This document shows, one piece after another, positions 49,736-64,000 of a DNA stretch of 64,000 nt. Where the stretch lies: assembly GCF_001442615.1 (NCBI RefSeq), contig NZ_LMXN01000008.1, positions 62,001 to 126,000 on the forward strand. The letters are read 5' to 3'. The notes beneath the pieces are model-generated. The model was not told the origin of the DNA. It worked only from the letters and a program-made list of their open reading frames with translations, and ran no database searches. The stretch comes from Algoriphagus resistens. GTDB taxonomy: Bacteria; Bacteroidota; Bacteroidia; Cytophagales; Cyclobacteriaceae. How positions within the stretch are numbered: the stretch's first letter is position 1; every line of letters starts with the position of its first letter. The position numbers and the translations under genes are program-made.

Positions 49736-50566
49736 TCAAAATTTCAGTTTGGCCAATACCGGTAAATGATCAGAAGAGTAATGCTCCTGTATGACTTCGT
49801 GAAACAGAGACTGAATCCCAAGCCCTTCGGAATACAAAATAAAGTCAATCGCTTTTCTGGGATTCACTACCGGAATTGTATTCGGGCAGCCTTGCTCGCA
49901 TGTCCTGTCAAAAGTCTTATCCAAATGAGCCATCGTCTTGCTGCTTGCCTCCACATTGAAGTCTCCTACCAGAATTATCGGTAATTTCTCTTCTTCAAAA
50001 TAGGTGGTGATTGCTTCGGCTTGTGCAAGTGCGTTTGTATCACTGGTAAAGTCCAGATGCGTATTTCCAAACCTTACCTGTACCTCTTCTGGTAGCTCCA
50101 CAGTAACCACAGATAGCGTTCTTCTCTCAGTTCCGGTTTCTTCTGGCAAATGAACCGTCTCCATTTCTGAAATAGGGTATTTGGAAAGAATGGCTGTCCC
50201 GTAAGTTCCCCCTTTGTAGTCAATGCCCTTTGAGAAATAAAACTTCATACCCGTGAGTTCAGCAAGCTTTTCGGCTTGGTTAAGATGCACCCCAGACCGC
50301 TCATTGTTCACATCAATCTCCTGTAAGCCAATCAAATCAGCCTTTGAATTTAAGATCACCTTCGCAATGCCATCTACATCTATCAGTCCGGGTTTACTTG
50401 GGGGATTACAGTGATGCACATTATAACTCAGCACTTTAACTTCCAGACTTTCTGTGATTTCTGGTTGTTGAATTGGTTCTGTTGGGAGAGAAGGCCCCTG
50501 GCCATTCGCACAAGAATTAATCAAACCAGTCAGGAGTACCAGTGTATATATGCGAAGTCTTTTCAT
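49736..50566 (-). CDS. Endonuclease/exonuclease/phosphatase family lipoprotein
   Basis: The 276-residue protein has a lipoprotein signal (LLTGLINSCANG, Cys near residue 19) and one EEP (DNase I-like) domain. Catalytic motifs: YNVHHCNP near 50, LQEID near 82, GNTHLDFT near 168, GDFNVEAS near 202 and SSDHLPVLA near the end. The family covers nucleases, inositol-phosphate phosphatases and sphingomyelinases. Surface location and neighbours (SusC/SusD, a phosphodiesterase and a second EEP protein) suggest attack on an exported or environmental phosphoester. It is 132 bases downstream of the other EEP gene. Confidence 0.84.
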   Translation of the reverse strand: MKRLRIYTLVLLTGLINSCANGQGPSLPTEPIQQPEITESLEVKVLSYNVHHCNPPSKPGLIDVDGIAKVILNSKADLIGLQEIDVNNERSGVHLNQAEKLAELTGMKFYFSKGIDYKGGTYGTAILSKYPISEMETVHLPEETGTERRTLSVVTVELPEEVQVRFGNTHLDFTSDTNALAQAEAITTYFEEEKLPIILVGDFNVEASSKTMAHLDKTFDRTCEQGCPNTIPVVNPRKAIDFILYSEGLGIQSLFHEVIQEHYSSDHLPVLAKLKF

Positions 50567-50698
50567 GTGTTTATAATTGTTATAAAATGGTCAGATGGAA
50601 TCTTTGGCGATTAAAATAATCATTGCTCTGTGTGTTTAATGATGATTTTGACCGTGTCGATTTCATAAGGGTTTTAGAAATGAAACAGATATCTAATT

Positions 50699-51472
50699 TC
50701 AATTGCTTTTCAGAACCAAAACTGCCTCTATTGGCAGGTGGTCTGAATAGTGAATAGTTGAAGGGATTTTGACGTGGGTCACTTTCTTGATATGGACTTT
50801 ACTGGTCCAGATATAATCTATCTTCTTGGAAGGATCTATTACAGGAAAGGTATTTCCCAATTTTTCATCCGCCATTTTTAATTGCCTTGAAAACAGTTCT
50901 ATTTCTTCTGTCCCAGGCTCTGCATTAAAGTCTCCTGTAAGGATAAGTGGCGAGTCGGCCTCAAGAAATCCCAACGTTTCAGCCGACTGGATCAATCGCA
51001 TGGATTGATCCAGGGCAAGATGAACTGTGGCAAAAACAAGCACTTTTTTATTGGCCAGGGAAATTTTAGTAGAAAGTAATGCCAAGGATCTTTTCTCGCC
51101 ATTTTTTATGGAAGTGATTTGGTCATGCTGTTGGCTGATAATAGGATATTTAGACAGTATTCCCAACCCGTATGCACCCCCGTCGTATTCAAAATGCCTC
51201 TGAAAAGCATAATGCATTCCAGTAATATCTGCCAGAACTTTCATTTGATCAACCTTGCCTGAGCGGTTGCACATACTATCCACTTCTTGCAAACCTATCA
51301 GATCGGCCTGGGTACCTTTGATATATTCTGCAATTTCCTCTAGCGTATTAACCTCATTTTTATCGGCACCGTGGTGGATGTTGTAGGAAATAACTTTCAG
51401 AGATTGTGCTAAAGAGCAAGGCATGTTAAGGAAGGTTGCACCCAGGACCAGAAAATAGAATTTGAAAATCAT
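50699..51472 (-). CDS. Secreted endonuclease/exonuclease/phosphatase family protein
   Basis: The 257-residue protein has a Sec signal peptide (ending CSLAQ near residue 23) and an EEP domain with SYNIHHGAD near 30, LQEVDSMC near 60, ATVHLALDQS near 150, TGDFNAEPG near 178 and YSDHLPIEAV near the end, so the active site is complete. It is related to the lipoprotein EEP downstream and shares its order of motifs, suggesting duplication. It begins 14 bases after the phosphodiesterase gene and is probably in the SusCD operon. Confidence 0.84.
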   Translation of the reverse strand: MIFKFYFLVLGATFLNMPCSLAQSLKVISYNIHHGADKNEVNTLEEIAEYIKGTQADLIGLQEVDSMCNRSGKVDQMKVLADITGMHYAFQRHFEYDGGAYGLGILSKYPIISQQHDQITSIKNGEKRSLALLSTKISLANKKVLVFATVHLALDQSMRLIQSAETLGFLEADSPLILTGDFNAEPGTEEIELFSRQLKMADEKLGNTFPVIDPSKKIDYIWTSKVHIKKVTHVKIPSTIHYSDHLPIEAVLVLKSN

Positions 51473-51486
51473 AGTACCAATTTAAC

Positions 51487-52653
51487 TTAGTCTTGTTTTG
51501 TATAAACTGTAAAATCAGTCTGTAAGCCGGAATCAGGTGTAACAAGAACATTTTCTACCTGGACCTTGATTTTGACTTCTTCAGGGTATTTCCAAACTGC
51601 TCTCAAGATCACCTTAACTGAATCCTGGGCAGGAATAGTTACCGTACCTAAAGGAGCTCCTTCAATATCATATGTGGACTGCATTTTGGTCTCAAAGGGA
51701 ATATCGCTGGAATTTACAAAGTTTACAATTATAAGAGGCTCCGCTTTTCGCAGCTTACGCTCAGCACTCACCCGTATAGCCGATTTGAAAAAAGCTTCTG
51801 CTTCAGGCTGTCTGGCAACAACATAATCCCCAAAATACAATGCAGTTCTTTTGGCAAACAACGCTTCCTCTACCCCTGCGGCCGTCTTTTCCTTTACAAA
51901 AACCAGCGTCATGGGTCTGTGGGTGTCCTTATATCTCGGATGGTTATCATAATGCTCATCTGTGTTGCAGAGCATAGCAAGATTATGATCCAATGCCATC
52001 CTATGGGCGATCACATTGTAGTTACCTGAATTGACTACTTCCACTCCTTTCAGGATATCCTTATCCAATAATTCCTGGTGAAAGGAAGTAAACAGCAGGG
52101 TATCTTTCTTATCCCACCATCCCCAACCCGGATGATTATATACCACAAAGGCATTTTGCTTCTTGGCGGCCAGGAACGGCTCCATAAGCTGCTCATGGGT
52201 AATGCTGTCTTTCATCACAAATTCGGCTTTTCCACTTTTCATATACTCGGTAGGCAGCGTATTGGCATCTTCCAGAAATAATGCATTGTGATGATATGGA
52301 GCCACTCTTGGTGATATTTCCACTCCCTTAATGATTATCAAACCTTTGCCTTCAGCGGATTTAGAAGCGATTTCATAGGACTTGTTGTAGTCTTTCTGTA
52401 TCAAATCAGGAAAGCCTTCGTAATCGATGTGCTCAGTAAGAGAAATCACATCCAAATCATCCCTAATGGCTTCATTCACCCGAAAGGTAGGCCAAACATG
52501 TCCGTCAGAAAACACGGTGTGCATGTGAAAATCACCTTTTAAGGTATAAAAGCCAGGGATATCGGGAAGGATAACCGAACTCTTTTGTGCGAAGGAAACA
52601 CTACTGATGGCCATGGCCATCAGTAGTAAAAATCTAACTTTTAGTTGCATCAT
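51487..52653 (-). CDS. Secreted PHP-type phosphodiesterase, Sb-PDE-like
   Basis: PHP-fold metal-dependent phosphoesterase of about 388 residues with a Sec signal peptide (LLLMAMAISSVSFAQ). PHP metal motifs: GDFHMHTVFSDGH near residue 40, TEHIDYEG near 72, YNHPGWGWWD near 172 and CNTDEHYDNHPR near 230. A C-terminal beta-rich domain follows (residues ~290-388). It resembles the Sb-PDE family, named for a Sphingobium enzyme that hydrolyses organophosphate diesters. The frame could start nine codons earlier inside the susD stop region; ATG 52653 avoids that overlap. It lies 17 bases after susD. Confidence 0.8.
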   Translation of the reverse strand: MMQLKVRFLLLMAMAISSVSFAQKSSVILPDIPGFYTLKGDFHMHTVFSDGHVWPTFRVNEAIRDDLDVISLTEHIDYEGFPDLIQKDYNKSYEIASKSAEGKGLIIIKGVEISPRVAPYHHNALFLEDANTLPTEYMKSGKAEFVMKDSITHEQLMEPFLAAKKQNAFVVYNHPGWGWWDKKDTLLFTSFHQELLDKDILKGVEVVNSGNYNVIAHRMALDHNLAMLCNTDEHYDNHPRYKDTHRPMTLVFVKEKTAAGVEEALFAKRTALYFGDYVVARQPEAEAFFKSAIRVSAERKLRKAEPLIIVNFVNSSDIPFETKMQSTYDIEGAPLGTVTIPAQDSVKVILRAVWKYPEEVKIKVQVENVLVTPDSGLQTDFTVYTKQD

Positions 52654-52670
52654 ATCTATTGAACTACTGA

Positions 52671-54425
52671 TCAATCCCAACCTGGATTTTGTTCCAGATT
52701 TGGGTTAAGGACTATATCCGTATTAGAGATTGGATGCAGGTACTTTTTCTCTGGGAATTCCCTGTCCTCATCATCTCTCCAGATCAAATGCCCTTTGGTA
52801 CCTTCCGAAAGCTGGGATGCACTGCCGTCGATGATAAAATAGATGACTCCTGGAACTTTTGAATCAGGCACTGTTTGCACGAAAGCTACGTCAGGGGTGT
52901 CATTGCCATCAAGATCCATTGGTATATCCAAGCCCGGAACGTAAATTCCTTTCCACTGCATTTCTATCAACTCTCCTTTTTTCCAGCGGAGCAAATCGTC
53001 GTAACGGAATCCTTCATAGCAAAGCTCAATGCCTCTTTCTCTTCTGATCTCAAGCAAAAATTTATCACTTATCCCCGGGAAATAGGTAGTTTGAAGGTAA
53101 CTATCGGAAGTCGTAGGTACAGCCGGGTTTACACCAGCCCGCTCACGAAGGAGCGCAATAGTCTGATTCCATACACTTTCATCAAACTGTCCTAATTCTG
53201 CCTTCGCCTCTGCATAATTCAAGAGAACTTCTGCATACCTGATCAAAGGAATAGAGTTATAGGATTCGGATACCCCATCCAGCCCCTTATCATCCAAACT
53301 ATGTTTTAGAATATGGTAACCTGTAAATGTATACCCGAAATTCGGGGGAGCCGGGCTTCCGTCACTACGGGTATACCCAAGCGAACGTACTGTTTGGGCC
53401 AAGCGGTAATCACGGTCTTTCATTTCATCCACAAAAAGAATTTCATCAAACCCTTCTTTGTCAGAAAACCGTGATCCATCTGTCATCAGGTAAGTATTGA
53501 CGAACTGCTTATTCAATCCCCAGCGGGCGCCATAGGTGGCACTGTTGAACTTCCAGGTGATATTATGCCACCTTCTTAGTGCGTTATTGTACACCACCGC
53601 CAGCATGATTTCTGTATTTATTGGGTTTTCGCTAGTAAACAAGACCCTGTAATCCGTCGAAGCATCCCCCGTACTATAGATAGAATATGTGCCGGCGTCC
53701 ATTACTTTTTTGGCGGCATTCGCAGCTTCAGTCAGAAATTCATCTGCCGAGTTGACAAGTCCGGCCTCCGGATGATATTTTCTGAATGTTCCTTCGAAAA
53801 GTGCTACTCTTGATTTGAATGCCAATGCTACCTGACGGGTGACCATGGAGGAAGTATTGTCCTTTGTATCCCGGATATGCTCCACGGCGAAATCCAAGTC
53901 TTCCATAACATTGGCCATAACCAATTCCCGGGGATCCCTCGGCTTATATAATTCTTCCTCATCTGTAGTATCCAACGTTTGTCCATACCAAGGCACATCT
54001 CCGTAGCGCTTTACCTTCTCAAAATAAAACCATGCCCGGAAGAATCTTGCGATACCCTCATAGTGATCTCTCGCTTCTTGCGGGATGATTTCCTGATTAA
54101 AGTTTTCAAGGAAATAATTTATATTCCTTAGGTCTGTCCAGTTCCATGCTCCCTCATCCACTGATGAGTAGGTCCCGGCGATGAAAGTCGGAGATTGGTT
54201 TTTTGAGGTAAAATCTCCCAATTCATCACTTTGAACCACTTCGAGACCTCCTGGAAGCATTCTTTGGTAAAAGGAAGTGGTATACAATTCAAGATCTTTT
54301 TCGGACTGGAAAAAGGTATTTGGTACCAGTCTATCCATTGGCTCAGTTTCCAGAAAGTCTTCGCAAGAGCTGAATGACATGATGGAAAGTATAGCCGTAG
54401 AAAATATTATCAATGATTTTTTCAT
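52671..54425 (-). CDS. SusD/RagB-family nutrient-binding lipoprotein
   Basis: The 584-residue surface lipoprotein forms the lid of the SusC channel. Signal II with SFSSCEDFLE (Cys near residue 21), the SusD-type opening LETEPMDRLVPNTFFQSEKDLE, a TPR-like core with RAWFYFEKVKRYGDVPW near 130 and the C-terminal RRERGIELCYEGFRYDDLLRWKKGE stretch near 470 are all typical. It follows susC by 19 bases. The ligand is unknown; the linked genes point to a phosphorylated compound. Confidence 0.93.
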   Translation of the reverse strand: MKKSLIIFSTAILSIMSFSSCEDFLETEPMDRLVPNTFFQSEKDLELYTTSFYQRMLPGGLEVVQSDELGDFTSKNQSPTFIAGTYSSVDEGAWNWTDLRNINYFLENFNQEIIPQEARDHYEGIARFFRAWFYFEKVKRYGDVPWYGQTLDTTDEEELYKPRDPRELVMANVMEDLDFAVEHIRDTKDNTSSMVTRQVALAFKSRVALFEGTFRKYHPEAGLVNSADEFLTEAANAAKKVMDAGTYSIYSTGDASTDYRVLFTSENPINTEIMLAVVYNNALRRWHNITWKFNSATYGARWGLNKQFVNTYLMTDGSRFSDKEGFDEILFVDEMKDRDYRLAQTVRSLGYTRSDGSPAPPNFGYTFTGYHILKHSLDDKGLDGVSESYNSIPLIRYAEVLLNYAEAKAELGQFDESVWNQTIALLRERAGVNPAVPTTSDSYLQTTYFPGISDKFLLEIRRERGIELCYEGFRYDDLLRWKKGELIEMQWKGIYVPGLDIPMDLDGNDTPDVAFVQTVPDSKVPGVIYFIIDGSASQLSEGTKGHLIWRDDEDREFPEKKYLHPISNTDIVLNPNLEQNPGWD

Positions 54426-54444
54426 AATCAGATAGTTTCAATTG

Positions 54445-57400
54445 TTAGAAAGAAAGATTCAAACCCACTGTATAGGTTTTGAGCATAGGATAGGCATCGC
54501 CCTGACCATGACTGTTGGTCATATCTCCAGTTGGCGCTTCGATAATTTCGGGATCAAAGTTGTCCGTGTGTTTGTAAAGGCCTGAGAAGGTCAGAATATT
54601 CTGTCCGCTCACATATACCATAGCTTTCTTCATCCCTATCTTGTCCAAAAGGTGGGCAGGAATGGAGTAATCCAAGGTTACATTTTTTAAGCGTAAGTAG
54701 CTGGCGTCCTGAAGATATCTTGTTTGCGGAGCTCCGAGTGATCTGTTGGTTCCCAAAGCAGTATACCCTCTGAATCTTGGAAAATAGGCATCCGGATTAT
54801 CTTCTGTCCAAATATCATCCATCATCATTTTGGGCTGAAAACCATAGGGCCTGTTGTATGGTCCGTAAAACAAATCCGCCTCAGGTGCGAAATACCAGTC
54901 ACGCTTGCCTACTCCCTGAAAGAATGCTGATATTCCAAAGCCATTCCAGTTGCCTGAAAGCGTAAATCCAAACTGATATCTCGGGGCGTTGTTCCCGATG
55001 ATTCTTCTGTCCCCAGGATCATTTACTGTGTTTGTTCCCTGATTGATTACTCCATCGTTGTTCAGGTCCGCAAACTTCAAGTCACCGGCAAGCCATTGTC
55101 TGTTGTTAGAGTTGATCAGGAAGCTTTGGTCGGCATGATTGGCAACATCTTCTTCAGAAGAGAAAAAACCCATTGTCTCATATCCCCAGATTTCTCCGAT
55201 TGTTGAACCCTCATAATAGGTGCTGGAGATTAGTTTATTGGGATTGTTGAATTTGGTAATTTCGGCTTGGCTGTCCCAGACCGAACCGGATATGCTATAG
55301 CTGAATGGCTTAGAACCCATAGCGAATTCATCTCTCCATGCCATGGTATATTCCCAGCCTTTCGTAGAAAGATCCGCGAAGTTGCCATATGGGACCGTCG
55401 CTCCAAAAACATTTGGAAGTGGCTCTCCATAAGTAAACATATCCGTGGTCAGTCGGTTATACCAATCAAAGCTTAGCGTAAATTTGCCAGAAAGCAAGGA
55501 AGCATCCATTCCTATGTCAAAGGTGGTGGCTTTCTCCCAAGTCAAGCCGTTGGGAATTGCTCCGGGCAGGTAGGTATATCCTTTCTGTATACCATCTAAA
55601 ATCACGCTTGTTTTGGCCACTGACATTGTTTCCATATAGCGATAGGGCGCCACATTTCCATTTCCAAGCGTACCATAGGAAGAGCGGATCTTGAGGTTAT
55701 CCAACCAGCTTTTGGTATTGCCCATGAAGCCTTCCTCAGAAATATTCCACCCTGCCGAAACGGAAGGGAAGAACCCAAAACGCTGGTCGCTTGGGAATTT
55801 GGATGAACCATCATAGCGGCCATTGAATTCCAACAAATACTTCTCTTTAAAACGGTAGTTTAACCTGTAAAATACCCCCATGTATTTCCACTCACTTCCC
55901 CCTCCTCTAATGGTATAATTGAGCCCATCCAATAGATTAAAATCAGGCTTGGTCTCCACCAATAGCCCATCCCGCTGGGAATCCAGATTTTCTAAACGGT
56001 TGCTCTCCACATTATAGCCCATTAACAAACTGAAGTCATGCACCTCATTCAAGTTCTTCTTAAGTTCGGCTGTAATATTTGACCCCCAATAGGTTGTCTC
56101 GTCGGTGAGTTGACGGAGTAGGCTTTGTCCGAAGTGGGAGCTCTGTCCCGGTGCGGTGCTGAAGTCCACGAAATTATTGAAGCGTGCATCCTTGTTAAAG
56201 TTTTTAGAGAAGGTGAAATTGGCCTTGAGAGTCAAAAAGTCGGCAAAGGGAGTTGCCGTAAGAGATGGTGTGTTTCTGATAAAAAATTTACTCTGGTCTG
56301 ATTTGCTGCTACCATCTACATAGGACGCTCCTATGTAAGACCCTGATTGGGTAAAGCTGCCGTCTGGATTCTGCATCACCGCCATAGGAAAGCCCTGAAC
56401 GGCTAAATACCTCCAAATCCCTGCATCGCCATTTGCAAGGAGCGGATACTCATATTTGTAAGTACTGAGGTCAAAGTTGTTTTCCAGAGACAACCAGTCT
56501 GTCAGGTTTACAGCTCCTTTTGCACGGAGATTATATTTGTTGAAATTATCCGAAGAATAGTTGAAGATCCCATCTTGATGATAATACAGGCCTGAGATGT
56601 AATAGCTTGCCTTATCAGATGCTCCTGATGCACTGATAGATGCTTCAGTCGCAGGCATATTGTCTTTATGCAGGTATTTGAACCAATCTGTATTCCCAAA
56701 ATACTCATACCTATTTAGCTCTTCATTGAAAACCGTTTCCGGAAGATTAGGATTTTCGTTATGGTTTTTCAGTTCTTCCAGGTATTCCAGAGAAAACGGA
56801 AAAATACTGTTTACAGAAATCGGATGGGTTTTGTAATCGTACCAAGCAAAGAAGGCCTCATCAAAATTCTTCGCCCATTCATAGCCATTGGTAACTAAAT
56901 TGGGCACTACCGTCCGCTGATTTACAGAATGGCTAATTTTCACATCCACCCCGGAAGATCCTTTTTTGGGATTTTTTGTTGTGATTAAAACCACACCAAA
57001 AGCTGCTCTAGATCCATAGACCGCCGCAGAAGAAGCATCCTTTAGGATAGATACACTTTCCACATCATTGGGATTCACCAGATTGGCATCCCCCTCTACC
57101 CCATCGATTAATACCAACGCATCACCACCTGCTCCTATGGAAGTAGCACCACGGATATTAAAAGCTGCAGACCGGGTTGGGCTACCGTCCACCATTTTGA
57201 TATTCAGGTTGGGAAGAGCTCCCTGAAGCATTCTGGTCAAGTTTGGGGAAGGTCTATTTTCAATAGCCTCTGTTCCTATCTGGGAAACAGCTCCTGTCAG
57301 ATTTACTTTTTTCTGTGTACCATAGCCAACCACCACTACTTCAGCCAACTCCTGCGGAATCAGTAAAAAGGTCATTTCATCTTCACTGATAACAATTACT

Positions 57401-57963
57401 TCGGGGTTATACCCCAAGGCCGAAGCCCTGATTTCTTTCCCTAGGAGAACCTCATCGATTTCCAGTGACCAGTTACCGTCCAGATCTGCTATAGCACCCT
57501 GGCTGGTTTCGGAAATAAAAACACTTGCTCCCATAATGGGTTCTTGGGTCTCTGCGTCCAAAATCCTTCCTGAGATTTTCATCTTCACTTCAATAGGTGT
57601 CTTTGTATTCTTATCTGTTGGTTTTACAGCTATTGATTCATTGACTTGCCTGAAACCCAGTTTTGTCTGCGCAGCCACTTCATAAAGCAAGGTCTCCAGG
57701 TCTGTATTGCCAGAGAGAGAAATTTGTTTGTTTTCCACGGTTTCAGGATTGAAGTGAAACCTAAATTCTGATTGCTTTTCCACCAGATGAAAAAAATCCA
57801 AAACAGAGGTTTTGTTAGACTGGATCGTTATCTGTGTCAGATTAAGATGTTGTGCATGTGAGCTACTGGCTAAGGCCAGACCACTCAGGCAATAAGCCAA
57901 CGTGAAGCCAACCATGAGGCACTTGCACGTATCCCACATGAGTTGTAGTAGTTTTTTTTTCAT
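54445..57963 (-). CDS. SusC/RagA-family TonB-dependent transporter with STN domain
   Basis: Outer-membrane importer of 1172 residues from ATG 57963; 15 earlier codons are open but precede the likely signal peptide. Order: signal peptide with long n-region, an STN domain (residues ~50-115), a carboxypeptidase-regulatory-like domain (~125-205, ISGRILDAETQEPIMGAS), the TonB box/plug with VVVGYGTQKKVNLTGAVS near 210 and VLIDGVEGD, then the 22-strand barrel ending in an aromatic LNLSF. The STN domain is the part that signals to a FecR anti-sigma factor, encoded just upstream with its sigma factor, so import and expression are coupled. Confidence 0.95.
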   Translation of the reverse strand: MKKKLLQLMWDTCKCLMVGFTLAYCLSGLALASSSHAQHLNLTQITIQSNKTSVLDFFHLVEKQSEFRFHFNPETVENKQISLSGNTDLETLLYEVAAQTKLGFRQVNESIAVKPTDKNTKTPIEVKMKISGRILDAETQEPIMGASVFISETSQGAIADLDGNWSLEIDEVLLGKEIRASALGYNPEVIVISEDEMTFLLIPQELAEVVVVGYGTQKKVNLTGAVSQIGTEAIENRPSPNLTRMLQGALPNLNIKMVDGSPTRSAAFNIRGATSIGAGGDALVLIDGVEGDANLVNPNDVESVSILKDASSAAVYGSRAAFGVVLITTKNPKKGSSGVDVKISHSVNQRTVVPNLVTNGYEWAKNFDEAFFAWYDYKTHPISVNSIFPFSLEYLEELKNHNENPNLPETVFNEELNRYEYFGNTDWFKYLHKDNMPATEASISASGASDKASYYISGLYYHQDGIFNYSSDNFNKYNLRAKGAVNLTDWLSLENNFDLSTYKYEYPLLANGDAGIWRYLAVQGFPMAVMQNPDGSFTQSGSYIGASYVDGSSKSDQSKFFIRNTPSLTATPFADFLTLKANFTFSKNFNKDARFNNFVDFSTAPGQSSHFGQSLLRQLTDETTYWGSNITAELKKNLNEVHDFSLLMGYNVESNRLENLDSQRDGLLVETKPDFNLLDGLNYTIRGGGSEWKYMGVFYRLNYRFKEKYLLEFNGRYDGSSKFPSDQRFGFFPSVSAGWNISEEGFMGNTKSWLDNLKIRSSYGTLGNGNVAPYRYMETMSVAKTSVILDGIQKGYTYLPGAIPNGLTWEKATTFDIGMDASLLSGKFTLSFDWYNRLTTDMFTYGEPLPNVFGATVPYGNFADLSTKGWEYTMAWRDEFAMGSKPFSYSISGSVWDSQAEITKFNNPNKLISSTYYEGSTIGEIWGYETMGFFSSEEDVANHADQSFLINSNNRQWLAGDLKFADLNNDGVINQGTNTVNDPGDRRIIGNNAPRYQFGFTLSGNWNGFGISAFFQGVGKRDWYFAPEADLFYGPYNRPYGFQPKMMMDDIWTEDNPDAYFPRFRGYTALGTNRSLGAPQTRYLQDASYLRLKNVTLDYSIPAHLLDKIGMKKAMVYVSGQNILTFSGLYKHTDNFDPEIIEAPTGDMTNSHGQGDAYPMLKTYTVGLNLSF

Positions 57964-58080
57964 AATTTTGATAAATAAAGGTTGGGACTTGAGGTGTCGC
58001 ATCGCCAAAATTGTACACCATCAAGTCAGTTAATCATTCGATCTTTTGTCCGGTGGTTCTAGTAATCACCGGATTTTTCA

Positions 58081-59043
58081 TTAACAGGGGTTCACATCTA
58101 TGGTGACATTGGCATCATTTATTTTATAGGTTAGATTAAGCGTATAGCTGAGGGTCTCCAGAATTTGTTCCAGGCTTGCCTGAGTGAATTCTCCGGTATA
58201 ATGACAGTTTGGACCCTTCCCATTTATTTCGATAGTCACAGCATACCAACTTTTCAAGGTGGATTGGATCATGTCAATAGTTGCATTGTCAAACGTGATT
58301 TTACCAAGCCTCCAACCCGGAAGCTCTGCAACATCGAACTGCTCCATTTCACTAAAACCTTCCTGGGCTGTCCAACTGATTTTTTCCCCCATCAATAGAA
58401 TAGTTGATTCCTTTTCAGACTGCTGTTCCGAAAATTTGACCCTTCCGGAATAAACAGACAGCTCTACTCCCGATTGATGGTAAGATTTAAGGTTGAAGGA
58501 TGTACCAAGAACTTCTGTAGCCACTGTTCCTGTCATAATTTTAAAAGGAGATTCAGGATTGGTTGTGACTTCAAAAAAAGCTTCCCCGGATAAACTGACT
58601 TGTCGATTGGTAGGAAAATCTGCTGCATACTCAAGTTTCGATCCGGTACTCAGCCAGACTTTGCTCCCATCTGGAAGTTGAAAAGCAGACACTTTCCCGA
58701 TAGCATTGCTATACGCTCCTGCGGCGAGAGTAGCCGTCCCTGCATCTGGTAGGCCAGTAATGAGGCCATAACCAGCTCCGCAAAATAAAAGGAGGATTGC
58801 CGCTTTCCAGATCCAACTGCCGAAACCTATTTTTTTTCTCCTCCTGGTTACTTTGTCAGCATGAATTTTATTGTGGATGTTTTCCCAGGCTTGCAATTTG
58901 ATCCGATTGCTATCTGAAATAGATTTGGATACATCCTCATTTAGGGAGTTATACCAATGGTTCAGTTCTTCGAGCGGGGATATATCCTGCTCTTCTTTAC
59001 TAAAAAGCTTCCTTAACTGTACTTTGATTTTTTGTGAATTCAT
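58081..59043 (-). CDS. FecR-family anti-sigma factor
   Basis: The 320-residue inner-membrane protein has a cytoplasmic N-terminus (~70 residues) to hold the sigma factor, one transmembrane helix (IWKAAILLLFCGAGYGLI, residues ~80-98) and a periplasmic FecR domain (FQLPDGSKVWLSTGSKLEY, then FEVTTNPESPFKI). The C-terminal DUF4974-like segment (KITFDNATIDMIQSTLKSW) would contact the STN domain of SusC. Gene order sigma-FecR-SusC-SusD is the standard trans-envelope regulation unit of Bacteroidota. Confidence 0.92.
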   Translation of the reverse strand: MNSQKIKVQLRKLFSKEEQDISPLEELNHWYNSLNEDVSKSISDSNRIKLQAWENIHNKIHADKVTRRRKKIGFGSWIWKAAILLLFCGAGYGLITGLPDAGTATLAAGAYSNAIGKVSAFQLPDGSKVWLSTGSKLEYAADFPTNRQVSLSGEAFFEVTTNPESPFKIMTGTVATEVLGTSFNLKSYHQSGVELSVYSGRVKFSEQQSEKESTILLMGEKISWTAQEGFSEMEQFDVAELPGWRLGKITFDNATIDMIQSTLKSWYAVTIEINGKGPNCHYTGEFTQASLEQILETLSYTLNLTYKINDANVTIDVNPC

Positions 59044-59152
59044 AACCTGTCTCTTCCTTCTAAAGAGACCTGATCCACAGCTTTCATCTAGTCCTGAACA
59101 ATTATTGAATCATGAATTAAAAATTCTGTTTAGTAACAAAATGATAACTGGA

Positions 59153-59740
59153 TCAAGTGATCACAATTGAGAGTAATGCCACGGCTATCAGGTTATTTTC
59201 CAACTGTGCCTGAAGCTTGGAATTGGCCTGACTTAGATGATTTCTTACAGTGGACTCTGTGATGCAATAGGTTTCCGCCAGTTCTTTTACAGTCTTGTTT
59301 TCAAACCTGTTCTGAATAAAAATCTGCCTGCTTCTCATTGGTAATTCTTCAATTCTATCCATTAAAAAAGTATAGAGTTCATTAAACTCCATGATCTTAA
59401 AACCATCAATTGAGTCACTGTAGGAACTGTTCGGCTGTATAGAATCCAACGCATCAAATATTATTTTATCCTGATCTATCCATTTAAAAAACTGATACTT
59501 CAGCATGGTGACCAAATAGTTTTGAAGATTATTTATTTCTCCAATGCGCTTTCTGTATTTCCAAAAATTGATAAAAGTTTCCTGGGCCAAGTCCATGGCC
59601 AAATCCTGTGATCTGGTTTTTTTGAGAGCATGAGCAAACAGTATCTCCCAGTACCGATCGAATAGCACCCTGAAGGAAGCATCATCGTCCTCCTCTTGGA
59701 TCTTGCGAAGGAGTAGCTGTTCGTTTACTATTGCTTTCAT
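59153..59740 (-). CDS. ECF RNA polymerase sigma factor (Bacteroidota SusCD-linked type)
   Basis: The 195-residue sigma-70 family factor has region 2 (FRVLFDRYWEILFAHALKKTRSQDLAMDLAQETFINFWKYR, residues ~25-65) and region 4 with MRSRQIFIQNRFENKTVKELAETYCITESTVRNHLSQA (residues ~138-175). It should direct transcription of the susC-susD-phosphodiesterase operon when released by the FecR protein that follows 110 bases downstream. Confidence 0.93.
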   Translation of the reverse strand: MKAIVNEQLLLRKIQEEDDDASFRVLFDRYWEILFAHALKKTRSQDLAMDLAQETFINFWKYRKRIGEINNLQNYLVTMLKYQFFKWIDQDKIIFDALDSIQPNSSYSDSIDGFKIMEFNELYTFLMDRIEELPMRSRQIFIQNRFENKTVKELAETYCITESTVRNHLSQANSKLQAQLENNLIAVALLSIVIT

Positions 59741-59998
59741 GCACGAAAATTTAACGTAAAGTTACCTGAAGGAGCAGTGCCCGAAGAAATATTGGTGTTA
59801 ACAATAAGTTATGATTGGATACAGATATCTGACTAAATTAAGGTATGTATAACCTATCTGCGCAATGGAAAAGAGAATTAGACTTGTTCTTTTATCATCT
59901 AAACCTGTAAAAAAATGAACGTGGCAACATACTCTTTCAGCAATTCCAATTTAATAATTTGATAAACAGTATCTCATGCAAGAAAAATGGGGAATAGG

Positions 59999-60006
59999 TA
60001 ATTTTG
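59999..60006 (+). promoter_or_regulatory. -7 promoter box upstream of phoD
   Basis: TAATTTTG, a perfect TAnnTTTG box, 47 bases before ATG 60054 and inside the longer possible reading frame. This supports 60054 as the start. No Pho-box-like repeats were recognised. A -33 TTG at standard spacing is missing. Confidence 0.4.
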
Positions 60007-60053
60007 GGCAGCCTATAGATTTACCTATTTTTCTCTTCATTTATCTCTCTGCC

Positions 60054-61679
60054 ATGGAATCCCCATCAAAGCTCAGGCAACCTCATTTGCTCATCAGCTC
60101 CGAAAAAATAGACCGTAGAACCTTTCTGCAGAAGTCGGCACTTAGCCTATCGGGGGTAAGTCTTTTGGGGTCGCTCCCTTTTTCTTCACAAGCGGAAGAT
60201 CTCAATGACTATCCTTTTACACTTGGGGTTGCTTCTGGAGAGCCATTGCCTGACGGCATAGTACTCTGGACCAGGCTTGCGCCAAAGCCTCTGGAAGGCG
60301 GAGGACTTAAGGATCAGGAAATAGAGGTATACTGGGAAATAGCGTCAGACCCTGAGTTCAGTGATATAGTGCAGCATGGGACAGAATTGGCCACAAAAGA
60401 TTTTGCACATTCTGTACACGTGGAGGTAGCCGGTCTATCTCCTTCAAGCTATTACTACTATCGGTTCAAGACCGGTGAGGTTGTATCCCAAACAGGTAAG
60501 ACTAAAACGGCTCCCGCATTGGGCTCAGATCTTGCTGAGTTAAAATTCGCCATTGCTTCCTGCCAAAACTACTCTGCGGGGCTATATACGGCCTATGATC
60601 ATATGGTAAAAGAAGATTTGGACGTAGTTTTCTTTCTGGGTGATTATATCTATGAAAAAGCAAGTGGCGCAAATGCTCTTCGAAAGCATCTTCCGGATAA
60701 GGAAATTAGGTCATTGGAGGATTATAGAATCAGGTACGCTCAATATAAGAGCGATCCTTCCTTAATGGCGGCACATGCAGCTTTTCCATGGATAGTAGTC
60801 CCTGATGATCATGAGGTCAAAAACAACTGGGGCGGAGATGGCCCTCCTTACGATGACAATGCTTCATTTTTACAACGAAGATCGGTGGCCTTTCAGGCTT
60901 ATTATGAGCATATGCCTTTGAGAAAAACCTCAATCCCTGAAGGGATAGCAATGCGTGTTTATAGAAAGTTTAGCTTCGGCAACCTTGCAGAATTTTCCAT
61001 GCTGGATACCCGACAATTTCGGACAGATTTTGCCTGCAGTGGAAACTGGGAGGAGAACTGCGCTGCACGCTTTGATCCCGGTAGAACGATGCTGGGTGAA
61101 GTCCAGGAAAATTGGTTGACCGAGAATCTTTCCCAGTCTGCATGTACCTGGAATATTCTGGGACAGCAGGTAAGGATGGCCCAGGTTGGTAGAAAAATGG
61201 ACGGGACTATTAAATATGCAGCAGATTCCTGGGATGGATATGCCGCTACCAGAAATAGATTGATGAGCAGTATCAAGGATAATCAAGTAAAGAATCTGGT
61301 CGTACTTACAGGGGATTCCCATAAGAATTGGGTGAATGAACTACGCCTGAATCCTGATGATCCTCAATCCGAAGTGATAGGCACTGAATTTATGGGAACC
61401 AGCATCAGCAGCGCCGGAGATGGCAAAGAATTTTCCGACATAGGTCTGGAACTTATGGAAATCAATCCCGACATCAAGTTTTATAATGAGCAGAGAGGCT
61501 ATGTGGTGCTGGTGGCCAAACCTGATGAGCTTAGGGCTGACTTCAAGGTAATGCCTTTTGTCACACTTCCTGATGCGCCTATCCATACCATCGCTTCTTT
61601 CATTATAGCGAATGGAATTGCAGGATTGAGCCCAAGCAATCGGGATACGGCAACTACTGTGGCCCAAGCACTGGTATAG
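60054..61679 (+). CDS. Alkaline phosphatase D (PhoD) family, Tat-exported
   Basis: The 541-residue protein from ATG 60054 has a twin-arginine signal (DRRTFLQKSALSLSG, residues ~20-34), the PhoD N-domain (FTLGVASGEPLPDGIVLWTRLAP, residues ~50-72) and the metallophosphatase core: FFLGDYIYE near 200, VPDDHEVKNNWGG near 250 and LTGDSHKNW near 425. PhoD enzymes are phosphodiesterases/phosphomonoesterases that use Ca and Fe. It is divergent from the sigma/FecR/SusCD-phosphodiesterase locus, suggesting a shared phosphorus theme. The frame is open from 59976 but that stretch overlaps the promoter box. Confidence 0.92.
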   Translation: MESPSKLRQPHLLISSEKIDRRTFLQKSALSLSGVSLLGSLPFSSQAEDLNDYPFTLGVASGEPLPDGIVLWTRLAPKPLEGGGLKDQEIEVYWEIASDPEFSDIVQHGTELATKDFAHSVHVEVAGLSPSSYYYYRFKTGEVVSQTGKTKTAPALGSDLAELKFAIASCQNYSAGLYTAYDHMVKEDLDVVFFLGDYIYEKASGANALRKHLPDKEIRSLEDYRIRYAQYKSDPSLMAAHAAFPWIVVPDDHEVKNNWGGDGPPYDDNASFLQRRSVAFQAYYEHMPLRKTSIPEGIAMRVYRKFSFGNLAEFSMLDTRQFRTDFACSGNWEENCAARFDPGRTMLGEVQENWLTENLSQSACTWNILGQQVRMAQVGRKMDGTIKYAADSWDGYAATRNRLMSSIKDNQVKNLVVLTGDSHKNWVNELRLNPDDPQSEVIGTEFMGTSISSAGDGKEFSDIGLELMEINPDIKFYNEQRGYVVLVAKPDELRADFKVMPFVTLPDAPIHTIASFIIANGIAGLSPSNRDTATTVAQALV

Positions 61680-61890: not shown

Positions 61891-64000
61891 TTACTCATTG
61901 CGTAATGATTTTGTAGGATTCATAGCGATTGTTTTCTGGCTTTGTATCCAGATAATCCCAAGGATCAACAGTACTGCCCCAACTATAATCCATAGAAAAG
62001 ATGCCCATGGCATTTCCGTTTTGTAGGCATAGGTATTCAGCCATTTTAGTGATGCAAACCAAGCTACCGGCACCGCTATAAGAAATGCCAGTAGCAAGAC
62101 CCATACAAATTCGTTTACCAACACTAACAGCGATTCAAACTGGGAGGCGCCAAACACCCGTCGCACACCGATCTCCTTGGTTTTCCTCAAGGTATTGAAC
62201 GTTGCCAATCCCACTATTCCAATAACTGCAATAACTATAGATATAACAGAGAACGTTAATACCAGATTTGAAGCAATTGACTCAGTTTTGTATAAATTAT
62301 CGAAGGTCTCATCCTGAAACCAATACTTGATGAGCAAGTCCGGTTCGATTAGCTTATAAGCGCCACTGATCGCCTCAAGTGCCTTTTGGGCCTCTCCAGG
62401 CTTGTATTTAATATATATACCAGGTAGGTATTCAATTGGCATACTATAAATAATCAGCGGCTGAATGGACTCTTTCAGAGATCCAGTATGTAAATCATTT
62501 ACCACCCCCACGATTTCGCAATCCTGGTAATCATGGATTCTTATTTTTTCCCCGATCGGATTTTCAAAACCAAGATAGGCTGCAGCTGTCTCTGAAATTA
62601 AAGCCTCCGTGACAAGTGAGTCTTTTGTCTGCTTTTCTGGTAAAAAAGCTCTTCCTTCCAACACCTCTAGTCCGAATAATTCACTGAAATTGGCCAGAGC
62701 CGCGAGGGTCTGAAAATTGATTTGGGAATCGGGTGATTTACCTGCCCAATCCACAGCAACGGTACTGTTGCCTATAATCATGGGATTTGCATTCGCAGCA
62801 GTCATGTCTATGATCGCGTCGCTCTTAAGTGTCTCGCTCCTGAAAGCATCATAGCTTTTGAGCAGTCTAAAGCTAGGTTCTAGCCTGATCATATTTTCCT
62901 TGTCAAACCCCAGGTTCTTCTCGCGGATAAAATCCAACTGAAAATAAATTACAGAACTGAACAGGATAATGCCAATGGAAAGGCACAGCTGTACAGTCAT
63001 CAATACTTTTCGGATATTCAAGGATCCGGTAAAATTGTTGGCTCCCGAACCTTTTAATATTCTAGCGGATTGGAAAGAAGACAACACCAAAGAAGGATAC
63101 AATCCTGCCAGCAATGCTACTGATACGAGAAAAACCAGCAGGTAAAGAACATTCATTCCCCCTATCAGAGAAAGCGACAGGCTCGCATCGATTAAACTAT
63201 TGAACCTGGGAAGAGCTAGTACTGTCCAGGCAATTCCCAAAAGAAATGAAGCAAGAACCATCATGAACGATTCACTCATAAACTGAACAATCAGAGTGTT
63301 TTTCACCGCACCGATTGCTTTTCTAACTCCTATTTCCTTGGCTCTTAAAGTAGCCCTGGCGGTGGACAGATTCACAAAATTGATGACAGCCATCGCCAAT
63401 ACCAACAAAGCGATAAGAATAAACAGTCTTACGTAATCAATCCGTCCTCCTGCATTCTTTCCATTTTCATAGGCATTATTTAAATGCCAGTCAGTAAATG
63501 GGACTGCTTCATACGATATTTTTTTGGACAGATACTCTTCCCCTAGTACTGTCGGGTGATTGAGCTTCTCTGAAAGTTGTTTTGCCGGTACGTTGGAGGA
63601 AGTTTTTAAGTAAACATCAAAAAACCAGGACTGCAGCCTTTCCTCATTGATTCCCGTTTGCCTTTGATAAATTGAAAATGGAAGTGCAAAATCAAATTTG
63701 ATGGAAGATTGTGATGGGATATCCTGAAAGACCGCCGCAATAGATACTTCCTTGGATCCGTCAATCTTGATGGTTTTCCCCAGGGGGCTTTCCTCACCAT
63801 ACAGTGTCCTGGCCATTTTCTCGGAAATAGCAATCTGCGCCACATCTTCCAGGGGATTAGGATCACCGCTGAGAATAGAGAAGGAGAAGGTGGAAAAAAG
63901 ACTGGGGCTTGCATAAACACCATTAAAATAAATGCATTCCCCGTCTCCGTTTTCAGGCCAGAAACACAGTTCGTGTGGCCACCTTGATCCTGTTGATATG
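61891..64000 (-). CDS. ABC transporter permease, MacB/FtsX type, N-terminus outside the window
   Basis: Large Bacteroidota-type permease. The frame remains open from the stop at 61891 to the window edge (703 codons seen), so the start lies beyond 64000; the GTG at 63843 is internal, since in-frame sequence upstream (YASPSLFSTFSFSILSGDP) continues the periplasmic MacB core. Two FtsX domains follow, each with several helices: the first near RLFILIALLVLAMAVINFVNLSTA, the last near the C-terminus with LVLTFSVISIVIAVIGIVGL and KTKEIGVRRVFGAS. Members export antimicrobial peptides, lipids or act in envelope signalling. The ATPase partner is not visible. Confidence 0.88.
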   Translation of the reverse strand, partial: ISTGSRWPHELCFWPENGDGECIYFNGVYASPSLFSTFSFSILSGDPNPLEDVAQIAISEKMARTLYGEESPLGKTIKIDGSKEVSIAAVFQDIPSQSSIKFDFALPFSIYQRQTGINEERLQSWFFDVYLKTSSNVPAKQLSEKLNHPTVLGEEYLSKKISYEAVPFTDWHLNNAYENGKNAGGRIDYVRLFILIALLVLAMAVINFVNLSTARATLRAKEIGVRKAIGAVKNTLIVQFMSESFMMVLASFLLGIAWTVLALPRFNSLIDASLSLSLIGGMNVLYLLVFLVSVALLAGLYPSLVLSSFQSARILKGSGANNFTGSLNIRKVLMTVQLCLSIGIILFSSVIYFQLDFIREKNLGFDKENMIRLEPSFRLLKSYDAFRSETLKSDAIIDMTAANANPMIIGNSTVAVDWAGKSPDSQINFQTLAALANFSELFGLEVLEGRAFLPEKQTKDSLVTEALISETAAAYLGFENPIGEKIRIHDYQDCEIVGVVNDLHTGSLKESIQPLIIYSMPIEYLPGIYIKYKPGEAQKALEAISGAYKLIEPDLLIKYWFQDETFDNLYKTESIASNLVLTFSVISIVIAVIGIVGLATFNTLRKTKEIGVRRVFGASQFESLLVLVNEFVWVLLLAFLIAVPVAWFASLKWLNTYAYKTEMPWASFLWIIVGAVLLILGIIWIQSQKTIAMNPTKSLRNE

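Follow-up and report, generated by a model that had tools for sequence, protein, structure and literature searches.

In a 64,000-nucleotide stretch of the Algoriphagus resistens genome (the window hereafter; positions 62,001 to 126,000 of contig NZ_LMXN01000008.1, assembly GCF_001442615.1, or C42:62001-126000 of the 6.13-Mb host genome in our numbering), a SusC/SusD transporter pair is encoded together with three enzymes of phosphoesterase families. The first-pass annotation of the window had described a sigma factor and FecR, SusC, SusD, a PHP-family enzyme and two endonuclease/exonuclease/phosphatase (EEP) proteins running in one direction, with a PhoD gene divergent from them, and open reading frames and Pfam matches confirm this arrangement at 49736-61679. 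We find that the SusD protein belongs to a lineage that predicts phosphoesterase partners also in samples outside the one from which the lineage was derived, and this is what we add. The core idea has precedent: SusCD pairs with phosphoesterases are known from the phosphate depletion-induced loci PUSI and PUSII (PusCD1 and PusCD2) of Flavobacterium johnsoniae (PMC8115612; also PMC8812569), and what is new here is another SusD lineage with other enzymes. Judged from sequence, the block probably serves the ligand-induced uptake, through SusCD, of a small oligomer that is phosphodiester-linked or carries phosphate decorations, and probably feeds the cell on such a phosphate-linked compound.

What links this SusD to phosphoesterases? 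For a first sample, we searched 196 genomes of the family with the window SusD itself, so that loci were not chosen by their enzymes. Of about 115 SusD places, we took the best 20 below the window's own and that of G190, then 15 of the following 20 and five lower ones; the resulting in-group comprises 35 loci (L195-L214, L227-L241) whose SusD matches at roughly 36% identity or more by BLAST. The gene directly after SusD encodes an EEP protein in 13 of these, a PF01663 enzyme in 13 and a GDPD in two, that is, 28/35 (the next gene of L196, with overlapping frames, was assigned by hand, and the EEP label of L237 comes from the tally and its likeness to L230). As a control, we considered 30 of the 65 PF07980 places in the host genome together with their loci and dropped the group members L254, L262 and L271 as well as L265 and L277, which have no next gene. 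Here a phosphoesterase follows in 3/25, several next genes of the control loci being cut by the locus end, and the other next genes include two sulfatases, a GH30 enzyme and a glucoamylase-like protein. The difference (Fisher p 1.4e-7) persists at 4e-6 when two PF01663/sulfatase tallies, probably those same two sulfatases, are joined to the control count; since the test ignores kinship among rows, p is only a guide. The five lower SusDs (L242-L246) precede heparinase-like, pectate-lyase-like and alginate lyase genes, one unclear gene and one metallophosphatase-PQQ protein.

Two further samples agree. A family search centred on genome G326, taken to cover Flavobacteriaceae because its locus L297 is the Galbibacter locus L097, listed 17 SusD places, all of which were used. 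Five of the nine best places (E<=1e-108) have an EEP gene directly after SusD and one has a Metallophos gene; none of the six scanned among the eight weaker places has a phosphoesterase there (GH29, GH2, GHL10, two heparinase-like proteins and one Nramp), the other two being one without a next gene (L303) and one outside the scan (L305). The 6/9 versus 0/6 contrast gives a Fisher p of 0.017. L297 and L097 are the same locus, as are L068 and L105, and both pairs were kept in the counts. In the three exceptions, SusD is followed by a Calx-beta gene with EEP-like and metallophosphatase-like genes after it (L296), by a TIM barrel with PHP third (L297), or by a histidine kinase, with a PF01663-like gene directly before SusC (L299). 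The third sample came from a plasmid collection, where 15 of 30 matching records, at >=38.7% or <=31.6% identity, were examined. An EEP gene, annotated as such by others, lies right after SusD in 6/6 records at >=38.7% identity, three of the six being similar B. fragilis plasmids. At <=31.6%, 0/9 examined records have EEP, PHP or PF01663 next, and one has a phosphodiester glycosidase. Two plasmid-search loci are of interest in their own right: a Bacteroides finegoldii SusCD locus (L348:5797-9724, 31% SusD identity) carries two phosphodiester glycosidase genes, and on a Hymenobacter volaticus plasmid (L356:14526-26621, NZ_CP095068.1) a cluster with a group SusD and EEP also holds PI-PLC and CehA/McbA genes, a gene of the alkaline phosphatase family and a second SusCD. 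The first-pass annotation had tied the SusCD pair to phosphoesterases rather than glycosidases, which is borne out in each of the three samples; its suggested check of whether glycosidases replace phosphoesterases in homologous loci, run on the gene next to SusD, left this standing.

A quick tree of 92 SusDs (L242_1 omitted) gathers the same proteins into a 55-row set with SH-aLRT support of 97. It holds the rows next to EEP (13), PF01663 (13) and GDPD (2) genes, 14/19 of those linked to PHP and 3/4 of those linked to calcineurin-type genes, the latter two classes having entered the tree mostly through PHP; lyase-linked rows and 27 controls fall outside. The labels cluster on the tree and yet require several changes (PHP 5, EEP 6, PF01663 6), which suggests that a single transporter lineage probably swapped its hydrolase repeatedly.

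Viewed from the PHP enzyme, the association looks similar. Its orthologue set comprises 20 loci at 47-82% identity, namely L066, L067 and 18 named ones (L086-L103). A match to SusC or SusD lies within 5 kb in 19/20 and a group SusD in 15/20, as compared to 6/35 and 4/35, respectively, for more distant PHP loci, a set in which some loci are short and one is counted twice. After the PHP orthologue comes EEP1 or EEP2 in 8/20 and both in 4/20 (L086, L087, L088, L093). The full order sigma-FecR-SusC-SusD-PHP-EEP2-EEP1 is found again in L086, L087 and L093, which places it beyond chance, and SusC-SusD-PHP recurs in further loci. In one of these, from Cyclobacterium qasimii (L087:3606-4593), FecR is split into two open frames, maybe through a frameshift or an assembly error. 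In L107, L109 and L110 of Bacteroidales, SusD is followed by a calcineurin-type gene, so labelled from weak BLAST matches and motifs read by eye, and then by a more distant PHP gene.

Beyond the neighbouring gene, we followed the operon runs after SusD in 25 loci. PHP, EEP, PF01663, GDPD or calcineurin-type enzymes account for 40/58 genes. Nine of 12 run genes with no or weak labels were later identified, that at L198:8528-9805 by sub-cut-off matches, and among the 55 identified of the 58 genes there is no glycosidase or lyase. Two sister loci stand out. L196 (2868-10274) combines its PF01663 enzyme with an RbtT/DalT/CsbX transporter, a 2-hydroxyacid dehydrogenase, two FGGY kinases and a histidine phosphatase, and L198 (1552-9805) has two EEP genes, an RbtT/DalT/CsbX transporter, a GDPD and PafA (803 bits, cut-off 650); the transporters score 564 and 543 bits, respectively, against a cut-off of 375. 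This suggests catabolism of a polyol-phosphate polymer, a statement that applies to the branch of L196 and L198 and not to the window.

Several observations weigh against so uniform a picture. In the first sample, seven of the 35 loci (L198, L202, L207, L211, L213, L229, L240) are exceptions: an SdrD-like gene follows SusD in L198, with the two EEP genes next and GDPD and PafA later; L202 has a small gene without family label and then a beta-helix protein, L207 a glucuronyl esterase, L211 a first gene without family label and EEP second, L213 a DUF6528 gene and L229 no gene after SusD, and in L240 the next gene is lactonase-like with a weak PF04185 phosphoesterase match. Conversely, control SusDs of the same genome do have phosphoesterases next in the three cases mentioned (EEP in one, Metallophos in two). 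On the tree, five PHP-linked SusDs (L067, L096, L100, L101, L102_4) lie outside the group, and the controls do so partly by construction, because it was likeness to the window SusD that defined the group. By label, 18/58 operon-run genes are not phosphoesterases, including two NAGPA, two GxDLY esterases, a sulfatase (L066), transporters and kinases; three are without identification (L098:11351-11734, L195:10860-11396, L202:2692-3147), and 14 of the 25 run loci were chosen through PHP. Sulfatases are near in L066, L067, L103 and L104, and an acetylesterase in L067. Lastly, the EEP and PHP folds also hold enzymes other than diesterases, as illustrated by BT3783, titled a mannosyl-6-phosphatase, and by the weak match of the PHP protein to CehA/McbA.

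How far can the enzymes themselves be assigned? The PHP protein had been proposed to be an Sb-PDE-like phosphodiesterase, a name that it does not bear out. Its best solved relative is PDB 3E38 (E 8.6e-60), and in a plasmid search it aligns at 29% identity (E 4e-22) to a plasmid of Novosphingobium sp. EMRT-2 (L247), the strain of No-PDE, a proven diesterase of the PHP family (PMC11656708). From strain, subfamily and the fit of nine published ligand positions, we infer that this plasmid match is No-PDE. The window protein shares the PHP subfamily and all metal ligands with Sb-PDE and No-PDE (PMC11656708) and with 3E38; the nine ligands of the trinuclear site are kept in it and in 24 other relatives aligned besides No-PDE. 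The difference lies in the overall distance to No-PDE and in the two leaving-group positions (I96 and I206 in No-PDE), which are Y and W in the window protein instead of the non-aromatic residues of the Sb-PDE type (two other rows of this alignment are gapped near position 206). These positions are aromatic also in 3E38, whose function is unproven, and No-PDE mutated to the 3E38 residues moved its selectivity toward monoesters (PMC11656708). With nine metal ligands kept, the window PHP is likely a phosphoesterase; with two pocket positions aromatic as in 3E38, it is only possibly a diesterase. Might the PHP and EEP proteins instead hydrolyse other esters, the names of their folds having misled us into a phosphate theme? 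CehA/McbA, a family that includes carbamate hydrolases, is the top NCBIfam match of the PHP protein, at 53 bits under a cut-off of 80. Given that PHP retains every one of the nine metal ligands seen in a proven phosphodiesterase and that three to four further unrelated phosphoesterase families fill the same slot after SusD, we regard this explanation as very improbable.

Both EEP proteins fall into their superfamily by PF03372 (Exo_endo_phos, E values 8e-24 and 3e-21), and the conserved N, E, D/N and DH positions of this fold are kept in all six rows of the EEP1 and EEP2 alignments. Structure models (mean pLDDT, a per-residue model confidence, 80.2 and 79.5) retrieved many EEP proteins at 15-24% identity, and since such matches do not discriminate, we dropped the idea of naming a substrate from fold neighbours. 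These neighbours include CNOT6L, TDP2 and nocturnin, and the EEP superfamily comprises nucleases; together with exodeoxyribonuclease III matches in NCBIfam that stay below cut-off, this would fit scavenging of extracellular nucleic acid or nucleotides. We consider that role improbable, given the poor discrimination of the fold search, operon runs in which no nucleoside salvage gene was identified and the pentitol genes of the sister loci, which point elsewhere. Favoured over nucleic acid as substrates are polyol- or sugar-linked esters, such as glycerophospho- or inositolphospho head groups, zwitterion-decorated sugars or teichoic-type polyol phosphates.

The sugar side of that range raises another alternative, namely that the locus serves a glycan bearing phosphate or phospho-zwitterion groups, with the phosphoesterases stripping the decorations and glycosidases encoded elsewhere. 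Among the EEP1 fold neighbours is 4C1R, titled mannosyl-6-phosphatase Bt3783, an enzyme encoded in a yeast mannan locus; a literature search on BT3783 returned no paper on the point. A NAGPA phosphodiester glycosidase accompanies PHP in 5/20 orthologous loci. Furthermore, EEP1 and EEP2 both exceed the cut-off of PF23226 (PGAP2IP), and PGAP2IP clusters with Cwh43 and with GlcNAc-PDase, which removes phosphocholine from N-acetylglucosamine (GlcNAc) (PMC10704324); published members of that group are mostly from Clostridium-type species (PMC10704324). The lack of glycosidases and lyases among the identified operon-run genes and the fact that the swaps seen are between phosphoesterase folds nevertheless make a decorated-glycan locus unlikely.

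How might expression be controlled? Residues 1-140 of the window SusC have no Pfam match even at E<=5, but residues 41-140 align to the orthologue of L195 (32% identity, E 3e-12), whose N-terminus is PF07660 (STN) at 3.5e-9. We therefore assign an STN-type N-terminus to the window SusC by homology. With sigma factor and FecR genes upstream, the components of an STN-FecR-sigma transducer chain are present, and the earlier suggestion of induction through this chain gains support through homology. Co-occurrence of the parts is imperfect: the SusCs of L089, L092 and L094 align without the N-terminal extension, and while sigma/FecR is missing upstream in L089, and missing from the SusC line of genes in L092, L094 does have sigma- and FecR-like genes. 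A footprint 5' of the sigma gene is kept in L066, L086, L087, L093, L095 and L195. It has one exact match in the whole genome and, at <=1 mismatch, four matches versus 10 for the reversed pattern; reading it as a Pho-box or other genome-wide box was thus rejected, and we claim no regulon. In a position-weight scan, strong sites appeared only in those six loci, which together with the window had served to build the model; L208, L213 and others have weaker ones.

These data bear on a further possibility, that the locus scavenges phosphate and is turned on when phosphate runs short, with PhoD freeing the final phosphate. Its layout resembles PUSI/PUSII, in which SusCD, a sigma factor or FecR and secreted phosphodiesterases or phosphomonoesterases are induced only under phosphate depletion (PMC8115612), and PafA in L198 would fit. 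Neither the footprint counts nor the gene content of related loci speak for it. The first-pass annotation had included PhoD in the locus, but a PhoD match occurs in 1/22 related loci searched, some of which end 2-3 kb upstream of sigma, and that one (L103) is without SusCD; in a congener, PhoD and PHP are on separate contigs. PhoD was accordingly rejected as a locus part. Outside the 22 loci, L105 has a weak PhoD-like neighbour (20%, 54 bits). In L103 (5488-13443), PhoD (51%) adjoins two tandem PHP genes and sulfatases. Moreover, SusDs linked to PI-PLC, taken as PUSI-type by architecture, appear to stand outside this SusD group. We thus hold starvation-driven scavenging to be a possible but doubtful account, and favour ligand-induced uptake.

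The features of the locus are collected below. Gaps between genes in sigma-to-EEP1 order, calculated from coordinates, are 109, 72, 19, 10 (overlap), 14 and 132 bases; as neighbouring genes are separated by 132 bases at most, the block is likely a single operon. The 235 bases between sigma and PhoD separate the divergent genes. SusC and SusD form a pair by TIGR04056, TIGR04057 and PF07980 and by the 19 bases between them. Signal peptides were judged by eye and not with a predictor: EEP1 has a lipobox (LINSC), and 8/9 EEP1 relatives likewise have a cysteine after the signal, PHP and EEP2 have ordinary-looking signal peptides, and PhoD a twin-arginine motif. As the first-pass annotation had stated, Pfam and NCBIfam find no glycoside hydrolase or polysaccharide lyase among the eight proteins of the block, which sets it apart from a polysaccharide utilisation locus.

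Features of the SusCD-phosphoesterase locus and its surroundings (window positions)
Feature	Position	Strand	Evidence or remark
EEP1, EEP-family lipoprotein	49736-50566	-	Exo_endo_phos; PGAP2IP 30.8 bits vs cut-off 27
EEP2, secreted EEP-family enzyme	50699-51472	-	Exo_endo_phos; PGAP2IP 42.6 bits vs cut-off 27
Secreted PHP-fold metallohydrolase with C-terminal Ig-like DUF5001	51487-52680	-	Pfam PHP 1.1e-6; nine trinuclear-site ligands all present
SusD lipoprotein, phosphoesterase-linked SusD group	52671-54425	-	PF07980 (SusD_RagB) 4.5e-47; tree
SusC/RagA TonB-linked transporter, STN-type N-terminal extension	54445-58008	-	TIGR04056 806 bits; Plug/CarbopepD_reg_2/TonB barrel; STN via homology to L195
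Hairpin between FecR and SusC	58048-58074	.	Similar hairpin in L086 and L095
FecR-type anti-sigma factor	58081-59043	-	PF04773 and PF16344 (FecR and FecR_C)
ECF sigma-70 factor (Bacteroidota type)	59153-59740	-	Pfam Sigma70_r2, r4, r4_2; TIGR02985 103 bits, under cut-off 126
Conserved footprint 5' of sigma gene: two similar 7-base repeats, 11 bases apart	59797-59814	-	
PhoD alkaline phosphatase/phosphodiesterase, divergent	59976-61679	+	PF09423 (PhoD) 8e-114, with PhoD_N; neighbour here, not a conserved part

Starch-type polysaccharide utilisation loci combine SusC and SusD with sigma/FecR and an STN-type transducer. The window block shares all of these and differs in having no glycosidase or lyase. 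Closer in kind are PUSI and PUSII, which likewise unite SusCD with an ECF sigma factor or FecR and have secreted phosphoesterases instead of carbohydrate-active enzymes (PMC8115612), and the window locus matches this description of SusCD with phosphomonoesterase or phosphodiesterase genes by Pfam, NCBIfam and the operon runs of its relatives. The enzymes differ, with PF00149, PF16670 and PhoA there and PHP and two EEP proteins here; the main text of PMC8115612 does not contain the term 'PHP', and EEP appears as an orphan gene. PusD is described as polyphyletic (PMC8115612). In the second family, SusDs beside PF16670 (PI-PLC) genes gave no BLAST match to the window SusD, so our group looks separate from PUSI-type SusDs, as assigned by architecture. 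Among the matches listed, literature searches, in which subscription journals are thinly covered, gave no paper that describes PHP and EEP in a SusCD locus, and nothing on the point for teichoic acid with SusD.

Within the genus, taken broadly as Algoriphagus, the PHP gene is present in 5/72 genomes, that of the window counted in, and the locus is therefore accessory. A. aquimarinus ACAM 450 (L086) and A. vanfongensis DSM 17529 (L095) both have it, the second lacking EEP2. The closest named relatives of the PHP protein are from Cyclobacterium qasimii (82%), Algoriphagus aquimarinus (80%) and A. vanfongensis (79%). One PHP orthologue (G610:C7:110424-111578; L340) has one in-frame stop and is possibly decaying. 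The host genome encodes two further SusCD pairs of the same SusD group (G000:C42:140021-141751 and G000:C12:412147-413934; L205 and L214), followed by EEP and PF01663 enzymes, respectively.

What, then, is the likely course of events? We propose that the EEP1 lipoprotein would trim the substrate at the outer membrane, that the pieces would be bound by SusD and imported by SusC, and that any phosphoester bonds still left would be broken by PHP and EEP2 in the periplasm. Once loaded with substrate, SusC may in turn use its STN domain to signal to FecR and sigma, raising expression. The idea in the first-pass annotation that the locus takes up or trims an organophosphate was right in kind, as the link between SusD and phosphoesterases indicates, and has a published precedent (PMC8115612). 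More speculatively, one SusCD lineage spanning Cyclobacteriaceae, Sphingobacteriaceae, Chitinophagaceae, Flavobacteriaceae and Bacteroidales, including Bacteroides fragilis plasmids, could be a dedicated importer of phosphodiester-linked oligomers that repeatedly exchanged its hydrolase among unrelated folds, with one branch using polyol-phosphate (teichoic-type) polymers for carbon and phosphate; we offer this wider scheme tentatively.

The usual reading of SusCD pairs, followed in annotation and in ecological models, is that they import glycans. With a SusD lineage that predicts an adjacent phosphoesterase in three separate samples, organophosphate uptake could be tested for simply from sequence in Bacteroidota, including those of the gut; concrete enzymes and a SusD with a measurable ligand are now named.

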